A stretch of 64,000 nt of DNA, taken from NCBI RefSeq assembly GCF_032118995.1, contig NC_092651.1, positions 7,666,785-7,730,784 on the forward strand, given 5' to 3'. Below, in pieces: positions 10,046-55,080 of the stretch. The translations under genes and the position numbers were made by a program. The stretch's first letter is position 1. Every line of letters starts with the position of its first letter. Source of the DNA: Asterias amurensis. Taxonomy: Eukaryota > Echinodermata > Asteroidea > Forcipulatida > Asteriidae. The notes below the pieces were generated by a model, which worked only from the letters and a program-made list of their open reading frames with translations, was not told the origin of the DNA and did no database searches.

Positions 10046-13000
10046 ATGGCGGACCAGCTACAGCAGTGGCTGTTTTCGTCCGATCCTTTGGGGGATCTGG
10101 ATCCAAGTTTACACTCTCCAGGAGGCAGTGATGTTTTACTGGATGATATTGATGGTATGTGTTAAAATGCTATGGAGCTATAGGTACTTTTTGCATTGTT
10201 TTTACAGGGAATAATCCTCACTCGTTTTATTTTATTTTATTATAAAACAACACATGATGACAAAACCCCACTTTTGTGTGGCTAAGGATTTTGACCTTAG
10301 CCACAAGTTGGTCTATAATCTGATAATTATCAACACACACCTTATTTTAATGTTAGTTCAGCATATTTTATTAAAATTTTAGTAATATTCGGCATATTGT
10401 TTTTTAGCATAATACTAAAAATAAATAGATCTACAACAATGATTTTGATGAAATACAATACTTTATTCATGATGTATTTGTTTACCCACTTCACTTGCTT
10501 GTTGCCTTTGTGTGATTTAATTTTTCTTTCAATTTGATGAATGTTGGATTTCAACGAAACTCCAGTAAAAATGCCCCATCCAACCAAAAAACCTAGACAG
10601 CAGACCATGTTTGGCTCATGTTGTACTGTTTTCAAAACTTAAAATTTTGACATCTAGGGTCATTCTACAATTAACATAAAAACTCTGTTCCTATAACGGG
10701 GTAACGTTGCATTTGCTATGATTTCCTGGACAAGGTTCCGTATGGCGCCACCACTTTTTCATTCGATAAGAAATAATGTATTATCTAGTTTACCTCAATG
10801 AGATATCCCCATTTGTAAAAAAGAGTGAAGAAGTGGTGACGCCATGCAGAAAGTTATCTGATTTCCCCACCACCCAGTGTCCAGCAACAACAAAGTTCCT
10901 CAAAATGTAGCCCAGTTTCAAGGTTGGTCTGCTCAGCCTCCAGCTGATATGAAGTTGAAAATTTGGGGTGCTCTGCCTACCGCGTCGTTGTGGCGCGCTG
11001 GAGTGTACGATACAAATCAGTGACTGTTTTGTTTATAAACACATCCGATTATACTATGTTGTACACAGTCGTTGCTGCAAGTGCAAATGGTCAATCATTT
11101 ATGTAAGCGATTGAAAAATTCTATATGTTCTACAAAGCGAGTTGTTCGAAAGAATGGTTAAATATTAGTACAAAATATTTGATGTAAACTGATGTAACGT
11201 AGAAGTTTCATTGCTCATGAATGAGCGTGCACACTCATACCTGGTGTGTTGTTAAGCAGTCGTTGACTTACATCTACTACCCACGATGCTTCAGCAACAG
11301 ACTTGACACGTGACCACATGATCTACCACAGCACCGCGATGACGCATTCAATGGGCAGGGCAACCCTCTATTCGGAACTTACATTGAAGTCTATTGTGAT
11401 TGTGGACTATCCTATCATCATATAGAAGCACAACAAATGATTGCGAGTTCAATTAAATGCTTGATGTAAATCGATTTTAAAACTGTTTTGGAAAACCGTA
11501 GTAAATGGCTAGTGACACAGTGTCACTTGGGCACTAGTTAAGTTGGCGCTAGTGTGACCGTAGATGTCTTGAAACAATCTTACAAAGGAGTTAGCGCACC
11601 GTTGTTGGTTTAGCTGTATATAATAACTGCAACCATCATTAAAAAAGCAGAACACAAAGTTGTGACAACTCCTGCCGCTTGTGATTTGTCAGGGGTTGCC
11701 CTTAACTTTTTTTTCAACTGGCCAGCAGGACCAGTTGGCTTGATTTTTCACTGGTCCACCAGGTTTTTGACTGGTCTGTCAATTTTTGTATATTTTTTTT
11801 TTTTTAACTAATAGTATACTGTTGTATACATACCAACTGCTCGATTTCCAATTGCGCTATTTCAAAATTCAACATGAATTGCATTGCAACTTAACTGCAT
11901 TGATGGAAGCCATACTTAATTTATGTGTACCAAGTTATTGTATTCGTAAGGGGGCTCATTAATTTGAGAGTATTTTTTCTTAAAAAATGTAATAACAATA
12001 ATATTATTAAAATTAATTTAAAAACAGCTCAAATTATTTGTCAGAGTAAGTTGGAAAATTTAATATGATCTTTATTTAGGTAGTTTTTTTAGTCCATGGT
12101 TTATTGTAAGCACTCGACATCGAAGTATTGCTAAGTAAGAACTTTTTTATGATTTTTTTGTGTGTTTTACTAAACAAACAAAAACACTTTAAAACCGTCT
12201 GTTAAAATATCATTAACTTTTTATGTATTACCTTCATATCTACGGTGAGGAGGGTTACGTGCGATCGCTCAAGTTATTTTATCATGTATAAACATTGCCT
12301 ATTATTGTAGTTTTAATCAGTATTCATAAAGATAATACATCGTACCAAAGTTCCCAAAATCTTCCCACTTTCGTCCAGAAAAAAAACCCAACAAAAAGTA
12401 GACATCAAAATAGTTGCAACATCCCTTAAGAAGCATATGAGTTTTACTGTATTTTTTCAATTATGTGTAAGGAATGGTCGGTGCCGGCGTCTGTTTTGTG
12501 AACAAAATTTTCATTCAAAAAAACGTTTTTAAAAGCAGCAAAAACAACTGCGCCTTTGTTTAACACATGATTGCATTCTAGAACCCAAGTCGTTCTTGAA
12601 ATCATTCCGCAAAAACCCCAAACAACCGCGCATTTATTATGTGACCAATAAAACCATGGAGCAATAACCTAGATCGCCCGGGAAAAAAACAAGCCCCAAA
12701 TAACAACAAAATTAAGCAAAATCAGGACGGAAGAATCTTACTAAACACAAACAATCCTTTTTGCTCATCCATAGTATCCTAACTTGGTAATTTTTGTTGA
12801 ATGAAGCCTCACCGTATCGCTCGTTTTTCGTAAACACTCTAGACGTTATTCCCACACGGAAATCTGCTCCGTTGTAACCATGCTGCTGACAAAATGTGTT
12901 TTGCTTTGTGGTCTTTTGTCAAGGCGATTGAAGCTACTTTTGTAAGCTATTGCGTACTTTCATCATTAGAGGGCGTCTATTCTCACGCTATCGAATATTC

Positions 13001-16000
13001 TGAAACGCCCTCTAGCGTTCAATGTTTCTTACACTTTTTGCCACACGTGAATTAATACAAAGACTACAAGCCTACGCGTTGCATGATGGGAGTTTGTGTG
13101 TGTATGCAGGATCGTCGGAAGTTTGCCAGTGTTTTTACGTTTTATTCGAGCCTAAAAATAGTTTTAAAAATAGTCATTGTTCTGTAGTACCGCTGCCGAT
13201 ATTTTTGACTGGTCAGCCGGACCAGTTGGCAAGGTGTTTCAGCTGGCCTGCCGCGATTTCTACTGGCATTTGGCCAGCGGACCAGCATTAAGGTCGAACG
13301 CTGTTTGTTGTCTTGCGGACAAAAACATTAACAGAACAATGCAAAATAAATTTTGAATATTGTAAAAACTTCAGTCAGACTTTGTTGCGAATTTTTTTGG
13401 AAAGTAACTAGTCTAAGAACAAAAAGTTTGTGAAGAAAATACTCTGTTAATTTGTGGAATTATATGCAACAAACCCGTGGGACCTTGTGCGTAAAAACAA
13501 ATTTAAGGCCTAGACTAATCAGTATCATTTGATGCAAAATGATATTTTTTACAATTTTACCCTGTTACAATTTCTTTTCACAACTGCTTCAACTCGAAAC
13601 TTCTACCTTCATGATGCTATGTACTTGGTCGAATTTAATAACATTAAATTGAAAACTTTATAAACACAACATGAATTTGGACAGAGCCCGGGACCTTGGG
13701 CTGTGCCCTTTAGCCTGTCCTTATGGGGCTAAATATAGCTTCAGTTTTTCATGTGTCCAACCTGCAACTGCTACCGTTTGTGACTGATACTGATAGTTGC
13801 GATCCTTTTGTAACCCTCAATCCTTGCAATCATAGAATTACCTCATCCACTTTCACATCAAGGGTATTATTTTGGTTCGAACTATGGTGACGTCATCAGT
13901 GTTCTCCACACACGCAAACTGGGAGGGTGGGCCGCCCTCCTAAAATTTAGGCCGCCCTGCCAAAGAATTGGCCACCCTGCTTAAATAATTGGCCGTCCTG
14001 CCCAACAAATAGCAAACAGGCTATTTTTAGACTGCATTTTGTGTAATAAACAAACATTAAAACATGATGTACATTAGTTGCGATAGCGTAACCCTCCTGG
14101 CGGAGTCGGAGGGTTACGAGTCATACGCAATCTGTGCAGGGCGAAATGGTCAAACACGTGCAATTTCGACAGCTAGTCAACAGATTTGCTCAATTTTTAC
14201 CCCTTTCGAAAAATCATGACACAAATTCTATGAACCAACCTTAATCCTCAATATCTAATGAATAACATTCAAAACACCATTGAGAAAGTATTTTGAAAAA
14301 AAAGTACAAAAACTTACCAGATCCCGGAGCGAAACAGTCACAAATTCCCCAGGTTCTATTTTGAACCTGTCGCTTCGCCATTTTGTGACTTCCCGATGTT
14401 CATTGCTGTTGGACTAAACCATTCTGTAAAAGGGGTGTTATAAAGCAGCACGGCAGTGCGTGTGCGCTGTCCGATTACTATGCCCGCTGTTCACTCACTT
14501 AGCGCACTGCTGCAACCCTTGTAACACCCCTTTTGCAGAATGGTTTAGTCAAACTCGGCTGCGGCTCGGTCGACAGGTCGTCAATTCAATTGGCTGGTGC
14601 CTGCGGTTGGGTTCAGCGCTTGGGTTCAGCGCTTGGTAACCAGCTACAGGTTCAAAAATAGAACCTGGGAAATTTGTGACTGTTTCACAGTTCGTGTTGA
14701 TAGAATTTGTGTCATGATTTTTGAAAGTGGTAAAAAATGAACAAATCTGTTGACTAAAATATTTCGCCCTGCATCGATTGCGTATGACTCGTAACCCTCT
14801 GGCTACGCCGTCGGCAGGTGGGTTACAGTATCGCAACTAGATGTAAATGTACACACGACCACATGGTTCGTATGCCTGTGATCCACCACACACACAGCAC
14901 GCACAAACGTTCTGTTGCCCATTGAAAAACCCACTGCATGCATAGTGCATAAACAGTCCGCACGCTGTGTTTGGCCGTTGATAGACTTCAACACAATACG
15001 CACGTTCACGAACGAGAAAGAATTGCCACACAGTGTATGCTGCACGCCTGTAGAATGGTACAATGTACAGTAGGCCTGGGCGAATTATTCGAATATCCGG
15101 TTAATGGCGAATAGGTTTTCCTATCCGTAACCGCAAATGCCTTTTTTTTCTTAACCGGATATCCGCATAGGGCGTGAATAGCTATTTATAAACCGGATAG
15201 TTCTATAATTACAACCAAGTAACCGGATATTCTTTAATATCCGAATATCCGCGGACGTCGGGCGACAACTGACATGAATGTTTTGTCTGAATCCTAATGA
15301 AACTTCTATTAAGACAGCATAAAACAGCATAAATTAAGTATTTAACTATGCTCACCTCCGTGAAGAGTCAAAACAATGACATTTCTGACGTAATTTGTTC
15401 AAAGATTACAAAAGTTTTCCTTCACGTAGAGTCATCCACGATCAAAAGAACTAGCAAATCGCCATCTTTAAATTAGATCCGGTCATTTTTATGAATGAAC
15501 CGAGTGACACTGTCTAAAACTAATATCAATCCGCCCAGAAGATCTCATTCACAAACGAACAGCGCCCTCTAGCGACAAAAAAAAAATATTTTTCTAAATA
15601 TTTTTTATTTTTTTTATAGCGCCCTCTAGCGGCGAAAAAACTATTCGAATATTCGGTTAATTTCGGATAGTTGGCCAGCGGTATCCGAATAACAAAATTT
15701 CACTATTCGCCCAGCACTAATGTACAGGCATGAAACATTCAACTTAACATGTACAACTTTTGCCGATTGAAGGCGCGCGCAATGCGGGGCAATGTTCACT
15801 CTATGTCGTTTTTATTTTAAACAAAGTTTTTGACGATGGAACATCTAATCACTTATTCATGTAAATGGTATTTGATGGAAAAAAGTTTATTTAGGGCAAT
15901 ATTAGGGCAATATTTTCCGCTTTGAAAATGCATGTGATGAAGGCCGTCCGACAATCACCCGCTTTCTAAAGTTCCTACACTGTGCGTGCGTCAAGGGGCT

Positions 16001-19000
16001 AATCCCTTTGAGGTAAACGCACGCGGCTAATCCCTTTGAGGTAATTGCGGCACACAAAGCAAAATGTATAATAAATTGTACGTTTTGATTTAGTTTTTAA
16101 AAATAAGGTCAATCATTCTCCTAAGGCCAAACAAAATAATATGCGTGTTTCCGACCGTCTCTAGAAAAACACGCAGACCCTGTGGAATTTTATACATGGT
16201 TATACATTAACAGACAAAATAAAATAAATTAACCCCGATCCCACTCCCGTATGACAAAATACCGCATGATTTGAGATTTTTATATTTATTTTTTCCTTTT
16301 TTTTCTAAAATGTTTATACATTGATAGGCTATAGAACATTAGATAATAAACATTTTCTTATGAGAAAAGACATCGTTGATCCATGGTTGATAGTATTGGC
16401 ATTGCAATGAAGGACGGACGTACGTAGCGTGTGTGTAGTGTATGAGATCGGTTGCTGATGCATTGTACACGTGCAAGTTCGTAAAGCTAGCAATCTGTTA
16501 ATTGCCAGGCCTGTGAAATCTTCGCTTTAAAAAGGATTTCCGCTCTTTTTAAATTTCCCAGTCCGCATTTTTCTTGTGTTCCGCTTTTTTCCCGTTCCTT
16601 GTTTTTCTTGCGGGCTCCGCTTTTTTCCAGTTCCGTTTTTATCTTCTTATTGTTTACATCCAAAATAGATCGTCAAGCAGCAGGTACCTGGAATTGTGAA
16701 GCACTTTAATTGCGATTTGATTTTGACATGTGAGTAGGGGGCTAGACCCAGTAAAATGCTCCGTGTTGGTCTTTCATTGGAGCCGTTGTTGTTAATTTAG
16801 CGCGATGTCTATTTTACATGTGCTTCAATATCATTGTTCCATAGCACCAATAGAGGACGCTTTACTAAAAAGCCAACACCTTGAGACAAGATTAGGCACG
16901 CATGGTGTTCCCCCACGCGACGTATGTTGTGTATGTATGGTGTGTATTTTTTTACGACAAGTAAAATATATGACAGTCGACGACGAGGACTCATCGCGCT
17001 TGTGGATTTATTCCTAAAGGAATGCTACCAAAATATCTTGAAAATGTTGATGTACAACACATTGTTACATATAAGAATTGTGGCCTATGTTTCTGTGAAT
17101 GTGTTGTCTACGCTTCAGTTTTTAATAAAAGCCTTTTATTACGTTCGTAGTGCTGGCCAAAAATCCGGACAACAGTTTTCCGTTTTTTTTTTTCATGACG
17201 TGCTCACAGGCCTGAATTGCGCTGCTCAATCTTGAGATTGCACAACAGATGTTGATTGAGCGATGTTCGCCGACGTGTTGCGCTACGCTCTCGCATTTGC
17301 GCCGCCTGGAAGTGCACTAAAATTCCCACGTGACACGTCAAGTCTTGTCTCAATGCTTTTATTGCTGGTTCACGTACTTCATACCAATAGAGGGCGTTTA
17401 ATCTCTCGCTATTGCATCGCTCCAAAACGACCTCTTCAATGTTTCTTGTATTTATTGACGCACGCAAAGTAACAACGACTAAAGAAATGAAATCTGCTTT
17501 TGTGTTCGTGAAATTTACAGACGTCGGAACGGTTGCTTTTTGGGGCTTATTTTCTGTGTCATTTTTAGAGATTTGCGAGTCGAACTTGGACATCGTTGAT
17601 TTTACAGGAAATTTACATGCAAGGGCAAAAATATTTTCAACATTCGTTCCTACCCTAAGTTTTGAAGCAATAAAATAATTCATCAAAATAAAATGTGTTT
17701 TCCAGTGTCATAGGAAACACACATATTATTTTGTTTGGCCTAATATTGCCACTAAAACATATGGTCAACGTAGTTTTCAATTTACTGCACCTCACTTTTG
17801 GAACAATCTCCCTCTACATGTCAAACAAGCTACCACTATCTCATGGTTCAAGAGTCTTTTCATAACATTTCTGTTCAACTCATCAAATAGGTAATTTTCT
17901 TTTGTTCATCTGAGCGTTTAGAGACTTGCTTTTGGAGTTGTTAGGCACTATATAAATGCAGTTATTATTATTTACTTGATTCGGGGTTTGGGTACCCGTT
18001 TTACATCACAGTGTTTGGGAGAGAGTTTCCCATATATTTACTGTTACAAATAGTTGCAAACAACATCAACATTGTACTGTGAACTCGATTTAACCAAAAC
18101 AGGTAGGGCTGCCACTTAACAAAATAGTTCACTTGAAAAAAAATAATGAATGAAAGTGTAACGAAAATACACCGTTTACAAATAAATTCCAGTCGGCACA
18201 CTTTATTACTTCTTAAACTTTATTTACCAGATTTTAGGAAAGATTTAAGTAGAAGTTCAATGTTATATTTCAATGTGAAGAATTACTTTATACTTGTCAA
18301 CTAAAAGTTTGATGACCTCTACAAGTTAAATTCACCTGTGCCGTATTTAGCCAAGGATTATTATGTTATTGTTTGCGCACCCTAAAAGTTATAAAAGACG
18401 AGCCAAATGTCATCGTCATCCACATCTAGGCCTACTCACAGTATGTACTTTATAAAAATAAAAAAATCTTCAATGGAACTTCCAGGGCCTAAGCCATTAG
18501 CTCACACACATTTCAGTGTCAACTACTGCGCATGACAGGTTGTTATACCTGTACAATGGTTTTGAATATACATTGAGTTCTCTATTTATGCATAATTAAT
18601 TAGGTCCCGCCCCTTTCATTTTAGTTATCCAATGAGCATCAGTGGTATTGCACATGGGGTGACTACCTCAATCCCAACATGAACAGGATGATCATAGTCT
18701 GTGCTCGTTCCTGCACATGCCTTAGATGTGTTGCATTCTCTTGGAAACGGAGAGCTAAATTCCAATCCAAATCAAAACAATCATCTCCCTGCCAGCTACG
18801 TATTTTCTGTGTGTTTCAAGGCACCTGTAAAAGAGCAGTCAGCGTTTCAATGCACTGTTCAGGATTTGACTTGATGGTATCAAAACCACAGTGTGGTCTA
18901 CATCCCTTGTGCACAGCTTCTCCTCATGAGCAAAATTACAAATTTGTATGGGATTGTTACAGAAAGGTAAATGAGAGCCTACTGAAACTCGATAAAAAAT

Positions 19001-22000
19001 TTAATTGAAGGGGGGGGGTTTAAAAAATAAGTTTTGGAAACTATAAGTATTGCTTGACTGAATAAGCTGACCCCCTTCACTGACCAAAATCTTTAAGTTG
19101 CCGGTTTGGGTTGTAACAGTGTTATGGTTGCTACACATGTATAACACAATATCATCAGTTAAAAGTACTAAGGGCAGACGAAATGGATGTTCTATTTCCA
19201 GAACCAGACCACCCTAACCTAACACCAGTACCATAAATGTAAACGTTTTATTAGGCTTGGGGAAAAAAAAGATGGACAAAAAATAGACAAAGCAATGTAC
19301 CAATTACCAACAGTGTCCACTGTCTTTAAAGGCAGTGGACACTATTGGTAATTGTCAAAGACTAGCCTTCACAGTTGGTGTATCTCAACATATGCATAAA
19401 ATAACTAAGTTGTGAAAATTTGAGCTCAATCGGTCATCGAAGTTGCGAGATAATAATGAAAGAAGAAAACACCCTAGTCACACGAAAATGTGTGCGTTTA
19501 GATGGTTGATTTCAAGACCTCAAGTTCTAAATCTGAAGTCTCGAAATCAAATTCGTTAAAAATGACTTCTTTCTCGAAAACTACGATACTTCAGAGGGAT
19601 CCGTTTCTCACAATGTTGAAGTTCATGATAATAATTAAAGGAAAAAACACCTTGTCATACGAAGCTGTGAGCTTTCAGATGCTTGATTTTGAGACCTCAA
19701 ATTCTAAATCTGAGGTCTCAAAATCAAATTCGCGGAAAATTACTTTTTTCACTTCACTTCATTTCAAAGGGAGCCATTTCTCACAATGTTCTATTCTATC
19801 AACCTCTCCCCATTACTCATTACCAAGTAATAATTATTTTGAGTAATTACCAATAGTGTCCACTGCCTTTAAATGATATACAAAACACTTTGTAAAATAA
19901 ACCATACCCTTCCTTTACCTTACTGTTGAGACACTTTACTTCAATTTTCCTAAATGCTCTAGTTAGACTCCAAACTTATTCAAAAGTTTGTTTTTTTTGT
20001 TTTTTTTAAATGAAATAGGATAAGTTGTTGTGAAGGGGTGGAGATGCACCTCTGGGCAAAAAATTAGGGTCACTAGAAGGCATTTGGTTGGAAAAATAAA
20101 ACACTTGTACTTTTTTATATTTTTCCCTCAAGTCAAAAATAGCACGTTCTTAGTCATGCCACTCAAAAGGTCAGTCCTCTGTCTTATTGAATTTCATTTT
20201 AGTGGGTGCTCATATCACTGCAATTAACAAAGCACTCTGTGCTGGCCATTTCCAATTTGTATATACATGGGTATCAAATAAATTTGCCTCTGCAGTGTCG
20301 CATATCAGTGTAAACAGCCTGTTTGGAAATCATATCCTGTGAAATGCACAAGTTTTTGTACTGATCACAATATGCAAGCAGCGTGACACAGAAGACTGTG
20401 ATGAGCTATAGGACAGGGGAATATGATCGTCATGGCGCTGTCAAAGACCTATTTAAACCCTTTTCTGTTCTTAACTGTTGACCAGCTTCTTTTGATTCCG
20501 GAGTTTGTCAATGCGCCATGAGAATTATCCAGCTTTTATAGGTCAGGGTGCACTATTGGCTTTTGGATGCCTTGAGTTCTTAACGATTTAGATACTTTTT
20601 AACCGTTGCTTATTTTAATTTTGTCTCCTATTTTATTTCTAACTTGCTTTCATTGCACAAAGAGTGCATTGCACTGTAGAATGGTATGACTTTTCAAAAG
20701 ATTTCTTTTGACTGGCAATTTGAAAGCCTGAAAGCAGTTATTGTCCTAGCATTTATGAAAGACGTCAAAAGCAGAAGACTCTTGGTCCGTCACTTGAGAC
20801 ATCAGGGCCCGGAAATATGTCTGAAATTGAGCCACTGTTTTGTTGATACTCATTTATCATGAGATTTTTTCCTGTGTGCAACATCAAAATATAATTCCTT
20901 TACTGATCCATGCTTGTTTTTCACACTGGGTACTTAAGGACCGAGTTTAGGTTATCAACCACATTTTACGAGCAGCTGTTCTAAGTAGCGTGTGTGTCGG
21001 AGTTGCTTCTCATACCAAAAACTTGCTTCTATTTTACAGATGTTATTAAGTATGAATGTCCAGATGACTCGCTCCTTTTGGACAGCACCCTGGGAACTTC
21101 TTCCATCAATGATTCCGGCTTCCTGTCTCCTGACTCTCATTTTGATATGCTGCTGTCATCTCAAGCATCAAGACTGCAAGATCATGACACACAGCAGCAA
21201 CAGCAGCAGCAACAGCAGCAGCAACAACTAAGTCCTGTTCAAATAATTTCAAGTCCGATTGTCCAGCCTAAGACAAATCAAAATCAGCTCCAAGGGCAAA
21301 ACGTTGAGAATCAGCAGCTTCAGAACCAACTGCAGCAGCAACAGCAGCAGGCCACTGTGCAGATACAACAGCTGTTGCAGCAACTACAGATGCAAGCACA
21401 GCGACAGGCACAGTTACAAGAGCAGCAAAAGCAGGAAGCACAAAAACAGCTTCTTCAGCAGCAGTCCTTTCAACTAAAACAGCAACAGTTACAACAGCAA
21501 CTATTACAAAATGCAGTGTCTGTACAGCAGGTGACACCACCCACCCCAACTTCACCAACTGTCCCGATTACTATCGCAACATCGCCTACCCTGAAAACAT
21601 GTAATACGGTCATTGGAAAAAAATGTGTGGCCACGCCGACTGTGAAGTCTAACCAACAAGTTGTAATTTCTCCACAAGTTGGGCAACAGACGACAAGCTC
21701 CAAGCTGACAGTACAATCTCCCATTGCAACTGTTCCTGTATCCAAACCAGTACATCCAGTTACCACTACCTACCAACAGGTTAGATTTATGTACAATTAA
21801 ATTAAGAATCTCTGCTTCAATCCAAGAAATGCTTTTATTTGTAAAAGTAGTCCTTGGATTTTAATGATTCGTTCAACTACAGAAAAAACTCCTTTTTTGT
21901 ATTGGGAAAAAATGTGATAAAATCGATCAATACTTGCTTGAAAATAAGTTAGATTATCAGCGGATGTTTTATTTCCATAAAATATGTGCCTTTAAAAAGA

Positions 22001-25000
22001 AAATCTCTTATTAATCCACTAGCAAAAAACCCATGGTTACAATTTAAGATTTTCTATTTACAAATATTTTCATGCTATTTCCATACTAAGTTTGAATTTT
22101 TGAACATTCTTTGTCAATTATTTTCACAGGTTGTTGTCCCTACACAAATTGTCAAAACTGAGCCAACTAAATGCCTGCCTGTTGTCTCTGTGACGAGCGC
22201 CTCCTTGCAAATAAACAACGGCACATCAGTCATAACAAACATCCCTGTCCTTCTGGACAATGACAAGTTACCCATCAGCAGACTCACATCAAATAGAACT
22301 GAACTTCTTCCGCCCCCTAAAAAGGGTGAAAAGAGAACCGCACACAATGCTATTGAGAAGCGATATCGTTCAAGCATTAACAGCAAAATCCAGGAGTTGA
22401 AACAGATGGTGGTTGGGCATGATGCTAAGGTTGGTTTCACTTTCTGGTTGTTTATAAAATATAAAACGCCGTTATTCATATAGGAAGAAACAATAAATAA
22501 ATAGGAAACTTGCGGTTACAATCATGTGTAAAACTCTTTTATGTGAGTGTTGGCTCTGAGAAGGGCCGGTGTGGTCTCAACAACTCTGCTCGTCTTCAGT
22601 ATACTGTTTGAAACCTCGAGACCACACCAGCTCTTCTCAGAGCCAACACTCGCACCCTCTTCCTAAGTATCCACACCATGCAAGGCTTCAAACAATACTT
22701 GCCCATTATTCAGTTATGTAATACAAAAGTACTTAAAGAACAGCTGACTCATTTATACAATTATACTATTTATATTTACCCAGACGGTTTTCTTTCTCTC
22801 TGCCTACTAATCATTTACCAGTTTCAAAAATTGTACCAAAACACAACTCAAGAAGAATAAGTATAATTTTTTCCTCCTTTTCTTTTCAGATCCAAAAATC
22901 AGGCATCCTTCAGAAGGCTATCGATCACATCAAATTCCTTCGGAACACGGTCAACAAGCTCAAACAAGAGAATATAGTCTTGAGAGTGCAGTCTGACAAG
23001 CCCAACTGTTGTAAGTTTCATTTTATTTGTCTGTTTCTCCAAACTGACGTTGGTAAATATTTGTGCAACAGCTTTAAAATGGTCCAAAATGGCCAAAGCC
23101 GCTCCTTTCAGTATTTTTTGTTATTATTAATGGGATTGACTTTTCAAAATAAAGATTGCTTAAAATCACAACATAATTGAATGGAAATTTTGCTTATTTA
23201 AGTGTAGAATAATGTTCCATTTCTTTTTAGAAATCTTATTTTTATGTCTTCTCTTTATAAAATCAGAGAGCAATTTTCCCCAAAAACCTAAAACCTAATC
23301 AAAAAAAGGAACCTCAAATAAAACGAGAAGGGAATGAATGCCATCAGTTGCTGGCTGACCAAAGCCACATAATATCTATGTTCTTAATGGTATATGGTAT
23401 TGTCTTTTGCTAGTGTCGGATTCAATTCAAGTCAAGACAGAACCTATGACACCACCACCATCCGACACCAGTTCACCCCATCTCAGCCCAATGAGTAGCA
23501 GCTCCGACATCGGCAGCCCTGAGCTTTGTGAGGAAGAGGCCATGGAATCAAACTTCTCCTACGATGACGATGATGACTTCAAATCTGAACCCTACAGCCC
23601 TAATGGTCTGCTTGATCGTACCCGCTTGGGACTCTGTGTTTTCATGTTTTGTTTCTTGACACTGGATCCTTTTGGGATCTTAGTCAACTCCTTTGGCTCA
23701 AGTGGCGCTAGCTTTGAGAGACAACATGGACATGGGCGTACTATTCTTGCAGAGGAAGGTATGTTAAATTCTTTACTACTCAAGTTTTGTGGGGGTTTTT
23801 GTTGGGTTTTTTTTAGTTTAAAGGTATGTATTTTTGTTGAATGTAGTGAACAAGTTTTAGATTCAAAGTGTGGACCCGATAAAACAAAAGACATCGGTTC
23901 AAGCAATGTTGGGTCATTCTGCAACTTGCGCATGTCCATTTGGTATTTTTGGAAGTGAATGTTATTCTTTGAAAGGGGGCATTCAATTGTGTTTGTTTTG
24001 TTTTGTCAGATTTTTTTATTCGACTGGGCTAGAATATGACTAGGGATATGGGCAGGTTTCCAATCCAATGTCCTTGATTGGACTTGGAGTTTGCAGACCC
24101 AAGGTGTTGGAGATCACTGACCTAATAATCACAAGAGAAATCACTGATTTACAGAAACATCAAATTAATGTGTGACTATTTCTCTAGTATTTATACCGTC
24201 CATAATGTTGAGACTGTTTATGATTTACCAGAAACATTTGAGCAGACATGGTTGCAGTGGTTGGCTCCAGCATGCCTAGTGTGGTTCATTAATGCAGCTA
24301 TTGTCATTGGTTTCTTGGCTGGAGTCTTTGTCTTTGGAGAACCTGTCACTAAATCTCTCAGTGAAGCATCAACAACATTTTGGAGGCATCGCAAACAAGC
24401 TGATTTGGATCTTGCAAGAGTGAGTTATTAATGTTCAGGCCTTAGTCAGTTAGTCCATCCACTTTACCTGACATTAAATTAAACTAACTTTACAAACTTT
24501 TATATTTAAGCCGATTTTGATATCTTAAATGTTAACTTGATTGTATATTTCATTGTATGTGTAATTGGTTTGAATTCAGTAGATGATCAAAGAGGTTTGA
24601 GCATCAGGGTGTGAGTTGAGCTAGACCAATTTTAGTGGTGGGCTATAAATCAAACAGATTTCAAAGTCCACTAAGGGCGAGTGGATCAACTAAATTATTC
24701 ATGTATTATTATGGGGCAATCTTTGCTAGAGTGCAAGCATCAGCCAGGTTTTCAAACTGTTCACGTGATGGGGGCCATGCAATAAGTTGAATGGCCTTTT
24801 GACTGTGTTCATTCTCTATGGCATTTTATACTCCTTATCATTAGCCGAGTCTCAATAAATGCACTGCAAACAATATTTTAAATTATTCTAGGGAGAATGT
24901 GTGCTGAGCGGCACAATGTATTTTGCTGAGAATTCTGGGTTAAAATTGTGAATTCTGGGCAGGCATGCCCAGCCCTGCCCACAGTGGCTAATAATAAAAA

Positions 25001-28000
25001 AATGTAGTCGTTGAGCAGAAATCTATTGTAGGTATGGAATTTCTACAGTGTGACTTTGCTGTCAATAAGAACTGTTTGTAGCATATTTAATCATTGTGTT
25101 TTTAAAGGGAGACTATGCAGCAGCAGCAAGCCAATTGCGCACATGTCTTACTGCCCTGGGACGTCCACTACCAACATCCAGACTCGATCTGATGTCGTCT
25201 CTTGTATGGAACATCTTGCGCCATGTGCTAAATCGTCTTCTGATTGGTCGCTGGCTGGCAGCCCTTGCAGGAGGACTGCACAGGAAGCGAGAAGGTGAAA
25301 AGTGTCCCGATGGCCAGTCATCTGCTCGGGATGGCGCCCTAGTGTATCACAAGCTACATCAGCTTCACATGAGTGGTAAGAGCTTCCATTACCACTAAAC
25401 TTAAATTTTTCTTTCTAGTAAGGCCATGTCCGAAACAGTGACTTCGGCTACAGCTAAAGCTAGATCAGCGTGTCTGCCAGTGTTGAAGAATAGGCAGGCG
25501 TGTGATCTAGCCGTAGCTGTAGCCAAAGTCACCATTTCAGACAGGGCAGGAGTTGAGAAGGAAACTGAAAATAGTATTTACATCTTCCCATCTAGTCATG
25601 GTGATCTTCATTTCTGGTATCGCCAAAAAGCAGGACGAGGGTGAACGGTGATGTTGCCCAACAATAACATTTCTATGCGGTGCAGCGCTAATCCAGAGAC
25701 TGGTTAATAACACTCCAAAGAGTCAAGCATTGCTATTGCAAAATGAATAGAGCTTCCCTGGAGATGCAGATAATCTAAGATAGTACTGCAGCTTTAGAAG
25801 GATCAAATTCAACTAGTTGTAACTACTTTATCTCTATTGCATTAATTCTGTACAGGATATTTGACAGACGGAGAGCTATATGCCATTAACATGGGTCTGT
25901 GTGCCATGAACCTTGCTGAGTGTGCAGGTGATGCTATCAGTTCAGCTACATTGACTGAGATCTATGTCACCCAGGCACTGTGCTTCAAAATCAGTCTGTC
26001 TAGCAGGCTTCAAGTGTTCTCAGTAAGTAGGGGCAATATTTTGTCTCATTTCATTTATTATTTTCTTGATCTGTTCTTGAATGTCTTTGACTTAAATAGA
26101 TGTACTTAATTTTGTATTACTCTCCTTTTTGACCAACATAGAAATAAGGGAATCAATGTGTGGTCAAGAGGTTTTCAACTAGTGGTTTAAGCCCGCCGAG
26201 GCCTGGTTCTTGTTAATTTTACCGAGACGAAGACAAGGTAAATTATCAAGAACCAGGCCTCGGCGGGTTTAAACAACTAGTTGAAAATCGATTCAACACA
26301 CTTTGATTCCCATTCATAAATATCTTTTGGGTCCAAAAACATCAACACTTTTTGGTCAAAAAGCTTTTAAAAATGCAAAAATTATAATTGTTCAATGATT
26401 TCTTTCAACACAACAACCCTCCAGCTATGAAATGGTAAGGCCCTTGGGTAAACAACTTCATATAAGGTGATTGCTATGCGCGTCGTGCGTATCTCGTGAT
26501 GTGGCACAACTGTTCCAGCCGTTGCTCTCGACCAATAGGAATGAAGAAACTGTCTTATAACACAGGTGCAAGCTCGAGTGTCATGCCCATGTTTCAACCC
26601 TTTTTTGGGTGTTATATCATCCGTTCAAACACCCCCACGTGATGCCCTCTCGACCAATCAGAATGGATAAACTGTCTTAGTTAATTTTGAATAAATGTTG
26701 ATTGAATTGAACTGAATACTTACATTCTTGCTTGACGCCCAGTAAATGACATTGTTACAACCTTCAACAAATGTGGGGGTGTTGCCGCATTGGAGATAAA
26801 AAGTGGTCTGGGTGATTTGACAGAGGGATGACATTATCACTTTGCATTTTCCCTCAACCAGTGGGAAGGTTTGTTGGGTCTTCAAACTCTAAGCGTCCAA
26901 ACAAAAGTCCATTATTTACGGGTATGCATACATCTGTTTTAGATCTTCTATCTATAGAATGAGAAAGGAGCTCTTGTTTAAAGACAAAAAATAAAGGTTG
27001 AGTTTACATAGTGTTGACTTTACTTTCTATCCGCAGAGATACTTTCTGAGTCGTGCACGTCACATTGGAGCAGGTGGTTCTGAGTTACCATCTCTGCAAT
27101 GGTTGTTTCATCCAATGGGGTATCGTTTCTTCCTCTATGGATCATGGACCTGCAAACCCATGGAAAGTCTTTACAGTGTCGCTGGAAATCCAAGTAAGAA
27201 ATGACTCCTTCAAATCACTCCACTTTGTTGTAGATTGGGTTCCAAACCAACATAGCTTGTTCTTTAGTGCATGTATCAAGTTCCACTACCCACGTTTTTT
27301 CCTTAAAGCCACTGGACACCTTTGGTAATTGTCAAAGACTAGTCTTCTCACTTGGTGTATCTCAACATATGCACAAATTAACAAACCTGTGAAAATTTGA
27401 ACTCAATTGGTCGTCGAAGTTGGGAGAGAATAATGGAAGAAAAAATGCCCTTGTCACAAAAGTTGTGTCCTTTCAGATGCTTGAATTCGAGACCTCAGCT
27501 GAGGTCTTGAATTCAATTCAAATGTTTTAGTGAGAAATTACTTTTTTTTTTCAAAAACTACACTACTTCAGAGGGAGCTGTTTCTGACAATGTTTTATAC
27601 TATCAACATCTTTCCATTGCTCGTTACCAAGTAAGTTCTTATGCTAACAAATATTTTTGAGTAATTACCAATAGTCTCAAGTGCCTTTAAACTACATCAA
27701 TAACTGAACTGATTTATAAATAAATAATTTCTACCTCTGTCCTCCATAGCTGACCCACTGTCCTTTGTTAGCCAAGCCTACAGAGAACATCTCTTTGAGA
27801 AAGCAGTTTACTCATTGGAATCACCAGATTCAAAGGCTCCATCAACTAACTCAAAAGTTGAAAGGTATGTTTTCAAATGTGACTTCAAATGTGTATTATC
27901 ATATTCAAAAAGAATGCATTCTTGTTAGGGGCACAAATTGTCTGTTGCATTTTTTTCTTCGTTTAACCCAAAACTAATTGCGAAATAATAAATCCTTGCG

Positions 28001-31000
28001 GTATATGATTCGAACTGCCTCTAGCTACTGGGCAATCTCGGTGGTCTAGTTGGTAAAACACTGCTCTAGAATTGGAAAGGTCGTGGGTTCGAATCCCAAC
28101 CGAGCAACATGCCTGTGATATTTTTTTCACAGAGCTCGGGAAAGTACCAAGTATACAGTGCTTACACACACCAGTGCATATGGGTAAAAACCAAAACTAC
28201 TATTCTTTTTCCCTGATGCAAATTTTCCAAAATTAATTGTTTACTTTGGTCGGTTTATTTATTAAATCAAATAAACTTTCTATGTTTTTAGTTGTCATAT
28301 GATTGACATGAATGCTTTGAATTAATGTGGAGTTTGAAACGAACCGTTTTATTTTGATGTTTTTCTTCAGAGACCCACAGTGTTCTGAGACATTACAATA
28401 TCTACAGCGTCTTAGTGAATGTGCTGATGTTGCGAGTGCTCCAAGGCAGGCATTTGCCATTGGATCCAACATGTCTGCAGTTTCAGGTTCGAACCATTCC
28501 TTATTGAATACAAAGCTATTGTATTGGTAATATTCAAGCAAACATGATGACATGTTCTAGAAAACAAAGATGATTATCAAAGACGGTCATTGTCTTCAAT
28601 AGCTTGAATCCTTAGCAACAAGGAGTGTGGTGTAAGTCTATATCGCAGGGCCCATATCACACCCTGATTCTAATTCAGTGTATTGTGCTTTTATAAGCTC
28701 TATGCAAAACATACAGCCTTTATAACAAGTGAATGTAAATTCAAAAGTGGAAATACAAGCAGTTTGGCGTGTCTGCGTTCCATATCCATCCTGGCCTTTT
28801 GCCTCCTTGGATATGGAACGCAGAGCACTTTATTTTTCCGTATTCCACTCGCGCTTGTGTGATAACTTTTAATATTGTATGAAAATGTCTTGTGTTTAAT
28901 GATTACTGATTGTATGGCAACACAGTATACAAATATTGACTGCTTCGGGTGCTATGGTTAAAACTATGACTCCCGAGGTCCGGAGCGCAGACTATTAATT
29001 TATCATCCTCGTACACGCAACGGACGTCTGGGTAATGCACGCCATGTGATAGTCTTCGGACTAGCGCATGGCAAACCGATGCACTTTCACACGGCCGTCG
29101 TCTAGCAAAACTAAGACATGTCATGTGACGCGCACTAAACCAATGAACAGGCAGAATATTTGTAAGGGGTGTTATAATAACACATATTGTGTCTTTGCCC
29201 TTCCTATTAGGTGCCGACCCAGTTTCTAAGTGGTGGTGTAACATTGTCTTTGTTGCTGTTCATTGGCTTATGGGAGATGAGGCAGCAGCGGAGAGACTCT
29301 ACTCAGCAGTGGAATGTCTGCCTCAGCAGCTCCAGAGCACCGAGTAAGTAATGTAATCATAGTCCCAGAAAGTTGTGCTTGTCTTATGTTCCAATGCTAC
29401 AGAGTGTGACAATTACTGCTAGGCCTGGGTGACAAGTGCCACTAGTGTCATAGTCATGACTATCAATTACTTATTCGAGTCGCAACTACCGTTTTTCAAC
29501 TACTTGATTAATCGTGCCGCCACGATTATTAAATAAACAGTTGCGACTGCTATGAAATAAATAGTTGCGACTAACTTTTTGATGAACCAATTGTGTCGTT
29601 CATGACTTTTCATGCTTTTCATGTCAATATAATCTACATACAAAACATAATCAGACAACAGTGACGCAATCCTTCCATCCTTTCAGCTTGAACTTTACTA
29701 TATTGCGCTGCGTCGAACATTGCCACAATGCATGTTGATATCTAAAAGTTAGTCGTGGCTAGTGTCATAGTCGCGACTATTTGCGGCGCAACTAGTCGAG
29801 TAGCCCAGGCCGAATTACTAAATTATTTTTCCAGATTGTAACTGTCAACCATTTTGTATTCTTTCCCCCAGGGATGCTTTACCAAAGGCAGCACAGCTTG
29901 CCTTTAAGGCCAGAAAGATCTTTCTGAGTCCATCCATCAATCACAAGGAACAGATGCTTGATGAGTGTTTGTACATGGCCAACAAGTCCAGCACACACCT
30001 GAGAAGCAGTCTCAACTACTCTGGACAACAGGGACATGAAAAAATAACACAGGTAAGAAGAGCAATGGTACTGGATAGACAGTCTCCTGACGATAACTAG
30101 AGCAAGCTAGTCAAAACGTTGAGATAAAATAAAAACTCACCCGCGATAGTGAAGTTAATAACGATCCACTTGAAAACACTGAAGTAGTTTTGATTGTAAT
30201 GCCTGAAGTAACCATCCCCTAGAGCTAATGTTTTGTTTACTAGGGGATTCAAACCCACAACCTTGTGAATGCAAGTCCTGCAGTCAAACCACTTGACCAC
30301 GGTGACCTGTGATGACAAGTATTCATCTTGGAGTAGCGGAATGAGGTTTATTGGAGAGCAAGCTGCCTGTTTCCCTGGTGCATTGTAGTTGCATTGCATT
30401 TGCTTATCAGTATGCAGTGCTCCTTCAACGCAACAGGGCGATAAGCATTTACAACATGGAGGACACCACCAGGAGACACTCATAGGGACACAGAGGTAAT
30501 AAATAGCAACTTTGTAAAACAAACAATCTGAAAACAGCCATTGAGTATAATTGTTCTGTTCCTCAACAGGCTATGCAGGTTCTTGTTTGTGATTGGCTTC
30601 TATCTACCCGCACTGCTGTTTGGCAGAACCAACAAGGTTGTGCCAATAACGCCACCCAAGTCATCTCGCCATCTGAGCTGTCATCATTCCAGCAGGACCT
30701 CTCATGCATCCGTAAGCTATCCACATCCTTCAAAGCAGCAATGCCAAGGGTGTATCTATACCAGGCAACAGCAAGACTGATGGCAGGAGCACATCCAGCT
30801 AAGACACAGCAACTACTCGACAGGAGTTTGAGGCGGAGGGTCACCAATGCTTACTCAAGCATGAAAGGTGCGCTATTTATGCTGGTTTTCCAGATGTCTG
30901 GATTTGCTTGTTTGACAAATCCCTATTTGCCCAAACATTTTCTGTAATGATTTAAAAGGATATTGGGGAAATGTATTACCCGATAATGTGCACAAGTTAG

Positions 31001-31904
31001 TGGGGAGAAGTTTTCCTTTCCTTTTCACGCCACATTCAGTGTTGTAGCTAGGCCTATTTTAGTGGAGGGCTCTAAATCCACCAAGGGCGAGCAGATCAAC
31101 AAAAATATTCATGTTTAGATATGGGGCCATCATTGCTGATGTGCAATCTGGGGGAAATCTGTGCTGGGCGGCACCATGTGTTTCGCTCGGAGTGCTGGGC
31201 GAAAATGTTAATTCTGTGCAGGCCTGCCCGGCGCCGCCCACCGTGGCTACAACACTATCCACATTGCTAGTTAGTCTTCGCTTACACAGCTAGCGCAGAC
31301 ATGTTTCACTTATAGAGCAAGCGAAGAATGGTGATTGTCAACACAGAATTTGATGGTAGATCCAGGCCCATGAAATTTGACCCCACAGAATTGACAAATA
31401 AGGGGCCGCTATATTTCTTTTATTGGTAGTCATTTAATTGGTCTTGAGGGAAGAACAAGTAAAGAGTCAAATCAATAGCCCTTCTGTTAAGTTATAAGTT
31501 TTGTAAGTCACCGGAGTGTGGGTTCGAATCCAGATTGTGACACTTAAGTCCCTGAGGAAGATACTTTACTATAGTTGCTTCTTTTCACCCAGGGGTATAA
31601 ATGCGCATTGAAGACGCTTGATGTGGAATGTGTTATATAAGAACTTGGTATTATTTTTCCTACAGACGAAGATGAGGTAGTTGTGAGTGATCGTGATAGA
31701 GCTTCAGCACTCCTAATGGCTTGTAGGCATCTTCCATTCCCATTACTGTCATCACCAGGACAGAGGGAATGTATGCTGGCAGAAGCAGCAAGATCATTAG
31801 AGAAGATTGGTGACCATAGGGGATTGCAGGACTGCCAACAGATGCTAAGAAGTCTTCAGAATGGTGGCACTAACTGCCAGGCTGCATCCATAGCCTGCTG
31901 CTGA
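10046..31904 (+). CDS. SREBF1: Sterol regulatory element-binding protein (SREBP), complete, 15 exons
   Basis: ER-anchored bHLH-zip transcription factor, released by site-1 and site-2 proteolysis to switch on sterol and fatty-acid genes. Exons: 10046-10154, 21040-21779, 22130-22429, 22890-23010, 23414-23758, 24232-24419, 25108-25375, 25856-26022, 27037-27193, 27750-27864, 28371-28486, 29211-29343, 29872-30052, 30570-30867, 31666-31904; 3477 nt, 1158 aa, close to human SREBP1. Visible: acidic start (LLDDID), 12-Gln run at 88-99, Q-rich to about 185, bHLH from [18 protein letters not shown] (SREBP-specific Tyr in RYR) into a zipper ending near 418, DRTRLGLC at 491-498 before TM1 (site-2 region), luminal GRTIL at 531-535 (site-1 RxxL), TM2 near 550-575, [14 protein letters not shown], then the regulatory domain to [12 protein letters not shown]. 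Exon 6's acceptor is the only phase-compatible one and is least certain. Could equally be named SREBF2; one ancestral gene is likely. Intron 13 hosts miR-33. Confidence 0.97.
10277..10305. repeat. Short perfect hairpin in SREBP intron 1
   Basis: TGTGGCTAAGG and CCTTAGCCACA, 11 bp each, separated by a 7-nt loop. Intrinsic terminators are not relevant in a eukaryotic intron; probably a tiny foldback remnant. Confidence 0.6.
10733..10855. mobile_element. Palindromic MITE (GGCGCCACCACTTTTTC)
   Basis: TATGGCGCCACCACTTTTTC at the left mirrors AGTGAAGAAGTGGTGACGCC followed by ATGC at the right. Related pieces lie at 40212-40284 and 40833-40974. Confidence 0.65.
11693..13309. mobile_element. Inverted-repeat DNA element with CTGGCCAGC...GGACCAG ends
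   Basis: Left: TTGCCCTTAAC...AACTGGCCAGCAGGACCAGT; right: TTTGGCCAGCGGACCAGCAT and TAAGGTCGAACGC, the inverse of the left with divergence. Both ends repeat the GGACCAGTTGGC word. About 1.6 kb, no transposase frame. Borders are approximate. Confidence 0.5.
13925..14005. repeat. Short tandem repeat of GGCCGCCCTGC
   Basis: About four imperfect 25-30-bp units (ggccgccctcctaaaattta, ggccgccctgccaaagaatt, ggccaccctgcttaaataat, ggccgtcctgcccaac). Confidence 0.6.
14075..14839. mobile_element. Mutator-like non-autonomous element, 765 bp
   Basis: Ends TAGTTGCGATAGCGTAACCC and TTACAGTATCGCAACTA; long inverted termini extend inward (cgccctgc..., gacacaaattctat...). Flanks GATGTACAT (14066-14074) and GATGTAAAT (14840-14848) are a 9-bp target duplication with one change. 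A second inverted repeat (aaccattctgtaaaaggggt with accccttttgcagaatggtt) sits in the centre, probably another nested MITE at about 14417-14552. Confidence 0.8.
15071..15719 (+). mobile_element. hAT-like MITE (TAGGCCTGGGCGAATT ends), copy B
   Basis: The same element as 1618-2414, without the nested insertion. It is flanked by ATGTACAG at 15063-15070 and 15720-15727, a perfect 8-bp target duplication, which with TAGGCCTGGGCG ends fits the hAT superfamily. Confidence 0.85.
17757..17970 (+). mobile_element. LINE 3'-end fragment (reverse-transcriptase ORF C-terminus)
   Basis: A 45-codon frame encodes [20 protein letters not shown], then a stop at 17892-17894, then a tail ending ggcactatataaatgcagtt and ATT repeats. 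The (R)xF...AP.LWNxLPLxI motif and the ATT-rich end are the usual 3' end of CR1/L2-type LINEs. Heavily 5' truncated. Confidence 0.7.
19300..19871 (+). mobile_element. TTAA MITE, copy 2, with internal duplication and abutting half copy
   Basis: The full element starts at 19327. It is longer than its sisters (about 545 bp) because the block from the agatggttgatttc/agatgcttgatttt word to tttctcacaatgtt is present twice. Bases 19300-19327 are the right end of a second, otherwise deleted copy, sharing the TTTAAA junction. Confidence 0.8.
22545..22651. repeat. Strong hairpin in SREBP intron 3
   Basis: Arms 22545-22578 and 22618-22651, about 34 bp with few mismatches (gagtgttggctctgagaagg against cttctcagagccaacactc), around a 39-nt loop. 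Probably a foldback MITE; too long and regular for an obvious conserved microRNA. Confidence 0.75.
24625..24990 (+). repeat. Dispersed repeat (gggcgagtggatcaac / gctgagcggcac), copy 1
   Basis: ttttagtggtgggctataaa, ccactaagggcgagtggatc and, after an extra block, gtgtgctgagcggcacaatg and gtgaattctgggcaggc match the copy at 31037-31255 in SREBP intron 14. Confidence 0.65.
25428..25542. repeat. Inverted repeat in SREBP intron 7
   Basis: Arms 25428-25467 and 25503-25542 (tcggctacagctaaagctag against ctagccgtagctgtagcca), about 40 bp each, 35-nt loop. A foldback MITE is likeliest. Confidence 0.75.
26145..26680 (-). mobile_element. Foldback element with CCGCCGAGGCCTGGTTCTTG hairpin, copy 1
   Basis: About 536 bp in SREBP intron 8. 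One end is a hairpin made of ggcctggttcttg and caagaaccaggcctcggcgg inside aactagt...actagtt; the other end is acccacgtgatgccctctcgaccaatcagaatggataaac-like sequence. The second copy lies at 32942-33459 in the opposite orientation. Most of a diverged partner end recurs near 44205-44290. Confidence 0.75.
27304..27689 (+). mobile_element. TTAA MITE, copy 3
   Basis: TTAAAGCCACTGGACACCTT at the left, AGTCTCAAGTGCCTTTAA at the right, in SREBP intron 9. It carries the shared gagacctcagctgaggtc palindrome. With 31929-32278 it forms a variant group ending CACTGGACACCTTTGG. Confidence 0.85.
28036..28190 (+). mobile_element. tRNA-derived SINE, copy 2
   Basis: The head CTCGGTGGTCTAGTTGGTAA with T arm GTGGGTTCGAATCCCAACCG closes a 6-bp acceptor-like stem (CTCGGT/ACCGAG); the anticodon stem is degenerate. 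The tail acagagctcgggaaagtacc and aagtatacagtgct is shared with 7108-7215 and 33680-33790. In SREBP intron 10. Confidence 0.75.
28772..28823. repeat. Perfect 16-bp inverted repeat in SREBP intron 11
   Basis: CTGCGTTCCATATCCA and TGGATATGGAACGCAG around a 20-nt loop. Confidence 0.75.
28912..29185 (-). mobile_element. Foldback DNA element (agacgacggcc...atatt), copy 1
   Basis: Reverse complement of 60887-61110: shares gtacacgcaacggacgtctg, cttcggactagcgcatggca and the end ggggtgttataa. It also has gactgcttcgggtgctatgg and ttaaaactatgactcccgag, matching the hairpin of the second copy. It lies just before SREBP exon 12. Confidence 0.75.
29420..29812. mobile_element. hAT-like MITE in SREBP intron 12
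   Basis: TAGGCCTGGGTGACAAGTGC at the left, CTAGTCGAGTAGCCCAGGCC at the right; interior repeats of agttgcgact. Flanks aattactg and aattacta may be a degenerate 8-bp duplication. Confidence 0.65.
30083..30163 (-). repeat. Dispersed repeat 'agcttgctctagt', copy 2
   Basis: On the minus strand it reads ggatcgttattaacttcact and gactagcttgctctagttat, matching copies at 1-165 and 53028-53197. In SREBP intron 13, upstream of the miR-33 hairpin. Confidence 0.7.
30205..30318 (-). mobile_element. tRNA-derived SINE head
   Basis: On the minus strand: GTGGTCAAGTGGTTTGACTG (box A-like) and GTTGTGGGTTTGAATCCCCT (box B-like), followed by AT-rich sequence. The acceptor stem is poor, so a functional tRNA is unlikely. 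Confidence 0.6.
30373..30438 (+). ncRNA. mir-33: miR-33 precursor hairpin in SREBP intron 13
   Basis: The 5' arm at 30378-30398 begins gtgcattgtagttgcattg, identical to vertebrate miR-33a over the mature length. It folds with 30411-30438: CCCTG pairs with CAGGG at the base, then TGC/GCA, TTG/CAA and AG/CT, then a nine-pair block (GCATTGCAT with ATGCAGTGC, one G-T pair), leaving a loop of about 12 nt. Single mismatches separate the blocks, as is typical of animal pre-miRNAs. It lies between SREBP exons 13 and 14 on the same strand, inside the regulatory-domain region. Known biology: miR-33 is intronic in SREBF1/2 of vertebrates and in insect SREBP and targets lipid export and oxidation genes. 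Expression and targets here are inferred. Confidence 0.95.
30378..30398 (+). ncRNA. miR-33-5p: mature miR-33-5p
   Basis: 21-nt stretch on the 5' arm with seed TGCATTG at positions 2-8. The star strand would come from about 30412-30433. Assignment rests on identity to the conserved miR-33 and on the hairpin; exact Drosha/Dicer ends are inferred. Confidence 0.92.
31037..31255 (+). repeat. Dispersed repeat (gggcgagcagatcaac / gctgggcggcac), copy 2
   Basis: The same family as 24625-24990, here without the extra central block. In SREBP intron 14. Confidence 0.65.
31500..31655 (+). mobile_element. SINE 3' portion with tRNA-like T arm
   Basis: GTGGGTTCGAATCCAGATTG then tgacacttaagtccctgagg, agatactttactatagttgc and cacccaggggtataaatg, the common SINE tail in echinoderm DNA, ending in tgttatataa. 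In SREBP intron 14. Confidence 0.6.
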
Positions 31905-33790: not shown

Positions 33791-35281
33791 AAATTAATAA
33801 CAAATACACATGTACATTTTTTTGTAGATATGGGGTGGCATTCGTGTCAGATTTTTGTTGTTGAAATACACCGAATAATTTTATGAACAGGTTGAAAGAT
33901 TTTGTGCAAATGCAGTGGACATTGGCTATTTTATGTTAAGGAAGTTTCAATTGATTTTGATTAAAATCGCATTGTAATTAAATCTCATTGTATATAAATA
34001 AAAATTGACTAAAAGAATGTTTTTGTTTCCGTGGTCGTCTCTTTTCTATGACGTCACCAGCCCTAACTCAATGAGGTAATGAGGATCATTGGGTGAGAGT
34101 TGTGCAGTTTCCATATGACATCATTTTGGCGGCCAATGCAAAATGGTCTTTCTATTGCAACGTCACAGCCCGAGGTTGGGAAAACTAGAGAGCCATGAAT
34201 CCAAAACAAAAAACGGAAAGCTACTGTTTGAAACAAAGATACTCCAAAATGTAATATTCAAACACAGAGGTGGATTTGGTGGAAACAAAATTACCAATCA
34301 TGGGAGGTACTTTATTTCATTGAAAGTTTGCAGAAAATGTTGAATCTGTTAACACAAGTGCGTGTTGTACTAACATTGGGTCGTCCGCGCCATCCAACAA
34401 TGGAAAGGTCTATACAAAGGTAATAGATGCTTGAGGTTTTCAGTGTCATGAATCTAAGTTCAGTGAACACTAGAAAGGGGAAGGGGAGGTTGATAAGCAT
34501 TACAATGAACATTTTATTTTAGTTCAAGGGATGTATTAGAACTTGGCTTGAGCTCTCGTTTGAAGGAAGACTTTAATTCACAATTAATTCAGATGGAACA
34601 TTGTGCTATAATATTCTTACTGCCTTTTTTGATAATGATCTTTCTAAATTACCTGTTTGACTTGCATACTAGCAAACCTCGTCTTATGGAATTTCGGAAC
34701 AGAAAAAGCAAGATGTATAAACGTCGCATTCATTCAAAATAGTTACCAAATTTGAATCAATTGTTACTTCTGCTGGTATAAAGAATGCACCACACGCAGC
34801 CCGGACAGTTTTTACCGTCTCTTTTGCCGAGATGTTTTCGTTTTGATGTGAGATGTTTTGACATCGCCACCACTAGATGGTTCTGGGCTTGTTTTCCGCA
34901 ATGTAAGAATAATTCTCCGGTATAGTCGCGGATGACACTTCCTTAAATGACTTCTCATCCTGTCGAATCTGTTGGCAATAGTTCAGTCTTTTTTAGCCCC
35001 TTTCACACGAGAGCAACTTAGCAAGCGTCCCTTGCTAAATTGTAGCGTGATTGTAAAATTTTATAAAATGTATCTCGTGTGAACAACAATGTTGTTCACT
35101 GTGTACAAGTTCTTTTGCAAAATCGTGTCAAACTTTGTTACATTTTACAACCATGCTTAAAATAAGCGAGGGACCGAGTTTAATTGCTGTCGTGTAATTA
35201 TCCATACATGTAAATCACAAATTTCACGTCGTGCCTATTTCAGCCAAAGCAAAGGGTCGGGGAGAGGTGAAATAATGCAAC

Positions 35282-47205: not shown

Positions 47206-48610
47206 GAATGTGTGAAGTTCCTAGTGTAGCCGTCAGGGTTTTATACCACCCCCTTATTTTTGTCTTCTTTACAACTGGTGCTCTGTGTAACAGCTTTGAC
47301 ATGCCCCAACTGCTGTTGACATTCAGCCTCGTGACTAGCGCCTTGTCGATCCTCTCGAACAAAAGCTCATCTGTAGTTGTTTCGTTTTCAAGGAATGGCC
47401 GGATTTTGTTCTTCACCGTGTCGCTTCAGAGTCTTGTCAAGAGTGCACGTAAGAACTTGCTCTGCACGAACGATGCGTCGTACTTCAATCCTGATCTGGT
47501 TTCTTGACTCGCAAACATAGCTTTCTGTTGTAAGTCAAGAGCCCAGTTCAAGAAATTCTATGCAGACTCTTTGCAGTGTTGTGTTAGACGAGAGAGTTGA
47601 TGATAGAGTTTTTTCCCCGGATAATGCGACCTCAGCAACCGACGAAGACTGTGTATCATGTGATCGGTTCTTCCCTGGAGGTAAATTGGTAGGGATGATC
47701 CTGGCATTATGGCTCAGATCACTGCCTCAATGACTTCACACTCACTGTGACCTTTAGCCAGGCCATTCTCAATTTGACTTCACACTCACTGTGACCTTTA
47801 GCCAGGCCATTCTCAATTTGACTTCACACTCACTGTGACCTTTAGCCAGGCCATTCTCAATTTGACTTCACACTCACTGTGACCTTTAGCCAGGCCATTC
47901 TCAATTTGACTTCACACTCACTGTGACCTTTAGCCAGGCCATTCTCAATTTGACTTCACACTCACTGTGACCTTTAGCCAGGCCATTCTCAATTTGACTT
48001 CACACTCACTGTGACCTTTAGCCAGGCCATTCTCAATTTGACTTCACACTCACTGTGACCTTTAGCCAGGCCATTCTCAATTTGGTGAGCAAGGCTTGAA
48101 AAGTTGAATTCTTTGCGGCTGAGGGTCATTACTCCAATGTTGTCATTTCCAGAGTGAAGGGGGACCTCTGCAGCTGGACTCGTTGGGGGTTTCACTATTA
48201 CTGGTGCTTTTGGTTGTTCGGGGCTCCAGATGCTGACATGTCTGGAGTAGTTGGGCCTTGTTAAGTGCACTGACCTGGTTAAGTAAGATCTGGCACCGCT
48301 CCTGCGGTGACTTTTCCATCTTTGAATTTGCAACAAGGTATCTTCTTCGGGCCCAACCTCACTAGGCTGGGTCTCCGCTGCTTTTCCTTCGTTCCTCTTC
48401 CTTCTGGCTCTTCACCTCTAGCTGTCGCCCATCTCTCTTTGTCAAGCCGTGACGTCACAAACAGGTCCTCACTGCTCTGCTACATGTCTGCCATGGCTAC
48501 GGTTTTCACTGGACAGGCGCTTGCCATTGACTCAACAATGAATGTAGAGGCAACATACCTATCCCTTCATGGTCACCATATGTTGCACCCCTCAAAAATG
48601 ATTACCACTG
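47206..48610 (-). pseudogene. Retrotransposon gag-like relic, unit 2
   Basis: A diverged tandem copy of unit 1: the first 330 bp (gtgtgaagttcctagtgtag onward) and the cgtttgggg-to-ggtgctttcgg/ttggttg region match unit 1 base for base with many changes. It is interrupted by the 44-bp minisatellite. Pieces include PFLENETTTDELLFERI and APVIVKPPTSPAAEV. Confidence 0.6.
47732..48083. repeat. 44-bp minisatellite, 8 identical units
   Basis: Unit starts gacttcacactcactgtgac and ends ggccattctcaattt. Eight units end to end, 352 bp, with no spacer and no visible change. Because 44 is not a multiple of 3, each unit shifts the gag frame. Confidence 0.95.

Positions 48611-55041: not shown

Positions 55042-55080
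<39 letters not shown>

Follow-up and report, generated by a model that had tools for sequence, protein, structure and literature searches.

The window analysed here, a stretch of 64,000 nucleotides from the starfish Asterias amurensis, carries a gene for SREBP on its + strand, and a precursor of the microRNA miR-33 lies in sense in intron 13 of this gene, as placed by the gene model and by homology to other SREBPs. The features at the locus are the following.

10046..31904, + strand: SREBP coding region, host gene; 15 coding exons, 1158 aa
29872..30052, + strand: SREBP coding exon 13, ending in EKITQ; aligned with five SREBPs
30053..30569, + strand: SREBP intron 13 of 14; 517 bp, GT-AG, phase 0
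30364..30365, + strand: UG at -14/-13, counted from where the mature strand is predicted to start; about 6% by chance (estimate from base composition)
30373..30438, + strand: miR-33 precursor hairpin; RF00667, 61.6 bits; fold z -4.07
30378..30398, + strand: predicted mature miR-33-5p; exact string, 5' end predicted by homology
30379-30385, + strand: seed TGCATTG (UGCAUUG in RNA), positions 2-8 of the predicted 5' strand
30452..30455, + strand: CNNC motif (CAAC), 17 nt past the inferred 3' Drosha cut
30570..30867, + strand: SREBP coding exon 14, starting with AMQVLV; aligned with five SREBPs

The host gene model was built from the sequence and from homologues rather than from transcripts; any non-coding 5' exons would shift the intron number. 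All 14 introns are of the GT-AG type, and the exons join into one open reading frame. The junction of exons 5 and 6 was fixed by the Acanthaster protein: an alternative of 1174 aa was dropped, as it uses a poorer donor at this junction and adds 16 surplus residues, and the micro-exon candidates there were not convincing. A bHLH domain (PF00010) was found by Pfam at residues 351-401 of the 1174-aa model, in a part unaffected by the correction. Homologues were sought with residues 600-1174 of the same model; 7988 candidates were scored, and the best 120 of 1060 matches at E <= 0.001 were examined. Among these 120, the top match is the SREBP of another starfish, Acanthaster planci (86%), followed by the crinoids Antedon and Anneissia (58% each), another protein (54%) and a fish (48%); the hemichordate Ptychodera (53%) and then further vertebrates are also present, and no Asterias SREBP is found. 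With the C-terminal part of SREBP as the query, the solved structures gave nothing at E <= 0.001.

The intron 13 junction falls between Q980 and A981, in phase 0. That miR-33 sits in intron 13 of SREBP, between exons with these flanking residues, had been proposed in an earlier note, and the gene model bears this out (EKITQ / AMQVLV). Within the intron, 320 nt precede the hairpin and 131 nt follow it; because its ends are this far from both splice sites, it is not a mirtron. Upstream of the hairpin, the same intron holds a repeat element at 30083-30167, perhaps extending to about 30305. Two parts of it recur in the window on the other strand: 30088-30167 resembles 53195-53116 at 83%, and 30083-30144 resembles 166-103 at 81%. 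Reverse-complemented and judged by eye, the stretch at about 30220-30305 has the look of a tRNA derivative, with A- and B-box-like motifs, and the element may be an antisense SINE; ARAGORN reported no tRNA in the window.

The identity of the hairpin was assessed with Rfam. The precursor at 30373-30438 matches the mir-33 family (RF00667) over the full length of the model (1-69 of 69) with E 5.4e-12. The gathering score of this family is 50 bits, so that the match stands 11.6 bits higher; across the whole window, it is the sole match to attain its family's gathering score. A mir-2941 match that coincides with it was rejected at 23 bits against a cut-off of 60. The 91 nt of 30360-30450 fold at -36.1 kcal/mol, compared with -24.17 (sd 2.93) for shuffled sequences, and none of the 200 shuffles folds as well. 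The pairing list places the mature strand in the stem, which is stable by the z-score; the lower stem has several mismatches. Both the position first given for miR-33 and the claim that its flanks fold into a pre-miRNA are thus upheld.

The predicted mature strand, GTGCATTGTAGTTGCATTGCA, is 21 nt long and occurs once, without mismatch, on the window's + strand. Counting both strands, base composition as in the window predicts about 3.6e-8 chance copies of this 21-mer for the window and 2.7e-4 for the genome. The strand is identical to human miR-33a. The identity with vertebrate miR-33a, also claimed before, agrees with the Rfam consensus and with PMC5027541, which describes the strand of fish as matching that of mammals. 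Outside the hairpin proper lie two marks of processing, the UG and the CNNC motif listed above, both features of Drosha substrates; for the latter, the 3' Drosha cut was placed after 30435, as inferred from a 2-nt overhang. An apical UGU is not evident in the hairpin by eye.

One correction concerns the targets. The heptamer TGCATTG, earlier named as the site to be sought in 3' UTRs, is the seed of the microRNA itself, and the target site is its complement, CAATGCA. In the window, this site occurs 10 times on the + strand and 14 times on the - strand, with 3.9 expected per strand; two of those on the - strand come from the hairpin itself. CAATGCA is therefore in excess here, and a bare count of sites would mislead. 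Farther downstream, 2.2 kb past the SREBP stop, CAATGCAA at 34134-34141 (+ strand) is a full 8-mer match to miR-33; it too is to be read against the excess of the 7-mer in the window.

In the starfish's own genome (491.5 Mb), the mir-33 model was scored on 67 of the 87,250 candidates from a first look. Five matches reached E <= 0.001, and only the present locus is over the cut-off. One of the four sub-threshold matches (38.1 bits) is this hairpin read on its opposite strand; the other three overlap one another on contig C3 (40.4, 40.4 and 34.8 bits). These three, all sub-threshold, were rejected because the part of C3 that was read, stretch L002, is a GCATT-type tandem repeat. This repeat, at 1390-1575 of L002, imitates the mir-33 model with scores of 34.8-40.4 bits, and gives rise to false calls of mir-33 and to CAATGCA sites.

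The rest of the window holds other coding sequences, namely:

4608-4940, - strand: exon with a ZZ zinc finger (PF00569)
41640-41834, + strand: exon with a COMMD8 N-terminal domain (PF22838)
53222-54409, + strand: single-exon rhodopsin-type GPCR (PF00001, E 3e-32)

Beside the GPCR gene lies an ATTGTT array of 73 copies (55042-55480). A second array, of a 44-nt unit in eight perfect copies, spans 47731-48084. Two identical 300-nt copies, at 42579-42878 and 43351-43650, stand 772 bases apart and reflect either a recent duplication or a doubling in the assembly.

The pairing of miR-33 with SREBP is known from several animal groups. In vertebrates, miR-33a is found in SREBF2 and miR-33b in SREBF1 (PMC5027541, PMC3953336, PMC8103095 and PMC4058878). 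The starfish shares with them the Rfam family, the seed, the mature strand (that of miR-33a) and the location in an SREBP intron. It differs in having one SREBP gene and one miR-33 found, in intron 13 of 14, whereas vertebrates have two genes with the microRNA in intron 16 or 17. The oyster, a mollusc, resembles the starfish: its cgi-miR-33, for which small RNA was sequenced, lies in an intron of SREBF-1, a single-copy-type invertebrate SREBP (PMC4138081). The same is true of the fly, an arthropod, with miR-33 in an intron of its only SREBP gene, as cited in PMC5027541. Among ascidians, the miR-33 strand printed for Halocynthia includes the starfish 21 nt (PMC5399378), and mir-33 is reported from Didemnum (PMC8704543). 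PMC5027541 also describes zebrafish and carp as without miR-33, which counts against universality of the pair.

For echinoderms, miRBase holds miR-33 entries from an urchin and the bat star. Among the papers listed by literature searches on miR-33 and echinoderms, none describes miR-33 in an echinoderm SREBP. An urchin study listed six microRNA families from an early assembly, with mir-33 not among them; its sole 'mir-33' string is part of mir-333 (PMC1388199). The oyster and fly reports already allow the pair to be dated before the bilaterian split. The earlier statement that the pairing predates deuterostome diversification is therefore correct, and weaker than what is in print: the pair is older than that. 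The starfish case adds one animal to a known ancient pairing; it does not push back its age.

A further question is whether the intron itself is the same. Intron numbers alone are no guide to position, because the papers disagree on human SREBF1: PMC4058878 gives intron 16 for miR-33b, while PMC5027541 and PMC8103095 give intron 17 for SREBF1 and intron 16 for SREBF2. PMC4058878 also prints mouse Srebf1 primers for exons 16 and 17, on either side of the vertebrate miR-33b intron, which provide a bracket. The primer in exon 16 encodes RAALYSF; that in exon 17, reverse-complemented, gives PASVQV in one of three frames, picked for its likeness to SREBP1. A rodent SREBP1 (P0120) has RAALHSF at 898 (six of seven residues alike) and LASSQV at 972 (four of six). 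The aligned starfish stretch, about 925-1005, is interrupted at one point, by intron 13 after residue 980; introns 12 and 14, at 919.67 and 1079.33, fall outside the bracket. By this bracket, the introns of starfish miR-33 and of vertebrate SREBF1 miR-33b lie in the same part of the protein and agree to within about 80 residues, a scale coarser than codon and phase. The claim that the location is as in vertebrates thus stands for the protein region.

Taken together, these data indicate, with a probability of about 0.93, a starfish orthologue of bilaterian miR-33 that is nested in sense in SREBP intron 13 and subject to ordinary processing, as far as sequence can tell. Support for this reading comes from the RF00667 match, the single strong locus, the mature strand, the fold, the gene model, the SREBP homologues, the position bracket, the UG and CNNC features and the oyster precedent with its sequenced miR-33. 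The microRNA would be co-transcribed with SREBP, inside its pre-mRNA; Drosha would cut out the hairpin, and Dicer would then release the 5' strand for loading into Argonaute. mRNAs with CAATGCA sites would then be lowered when SREBP is transcribed. By analogy with mammals, lipid-export and lipid-oxidation genes might be among the targets, in which case a single transcript would both raise lipid synthesis and lower loss.

A decayed miR-33 hairpin, which has lost its processing, is a very improbable alternative: the mismatches of the lower stem are what it can draw on, and they are set against an intact mature strand, a match 11.6 bits over the cut-off, a fold at z -4.07 and the presence of both UG and CNNC. 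The microRNA may instead occupy a different SREBP junction from that in vertebrates, reached by intron loss and gain or by movement of the hairpin inside the gene. A primer bracket some 80 residues wide leaves room for this; exactly one starfish junction, intron 13, lies in the stretch bounded by the counterparts of the two primers, and we regard such a shift as unlikely. The most far-reaching version of the preferred reading, that of an intronic orthologue, would have miR-33 at one SREBP codon junction since before the echinoderm/vertebrate split, the nesting being kept by an equally old lipid loop that still runs in the starfish; this is tentative, and we would put it somewhat short of even odds.

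How closely host and microRNA act together is a separate matter. In the oyster, their correlation is weak (r = 0.58, P = 0.02; PMC4138081), and in the chicken, co-regulation of the host and miR-33 over 10 tissues was not supported (PMC3953336); both speak against tight coupling. The weak oyster correlation would fit a miR-33 with its own promoter inside SREBP, uncoupled from its host, but the sense orientation and the short 517-bp intron argue otherwise, and we consider this improbable. The same oyster and chicken data lend some weight to another alternative, in which gene and nesting are both conserved and functional, the starfish targets are not those of lipid export, other targets having preserved the seed, and the SREBP intron is no more than a convenient transcription unit. 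That fly, oyster and vertebrates all retain this microRNA within one functional host gene points the other way, by analogy; non-lipid targets are nonetheless a real possibility, if not the one we would choose. Shared location is no proof of shared targets, and, judged by the mammalian analogy, lipid targets for miR-33 in the starfish have about an even chance. For the nested orthologue itself, the locus offers a clear example, from an echinoderm, of a microRNA retained within an intron of its host gene, and the junction and phase established here allow its fixity to be tested codon by codon across animals.
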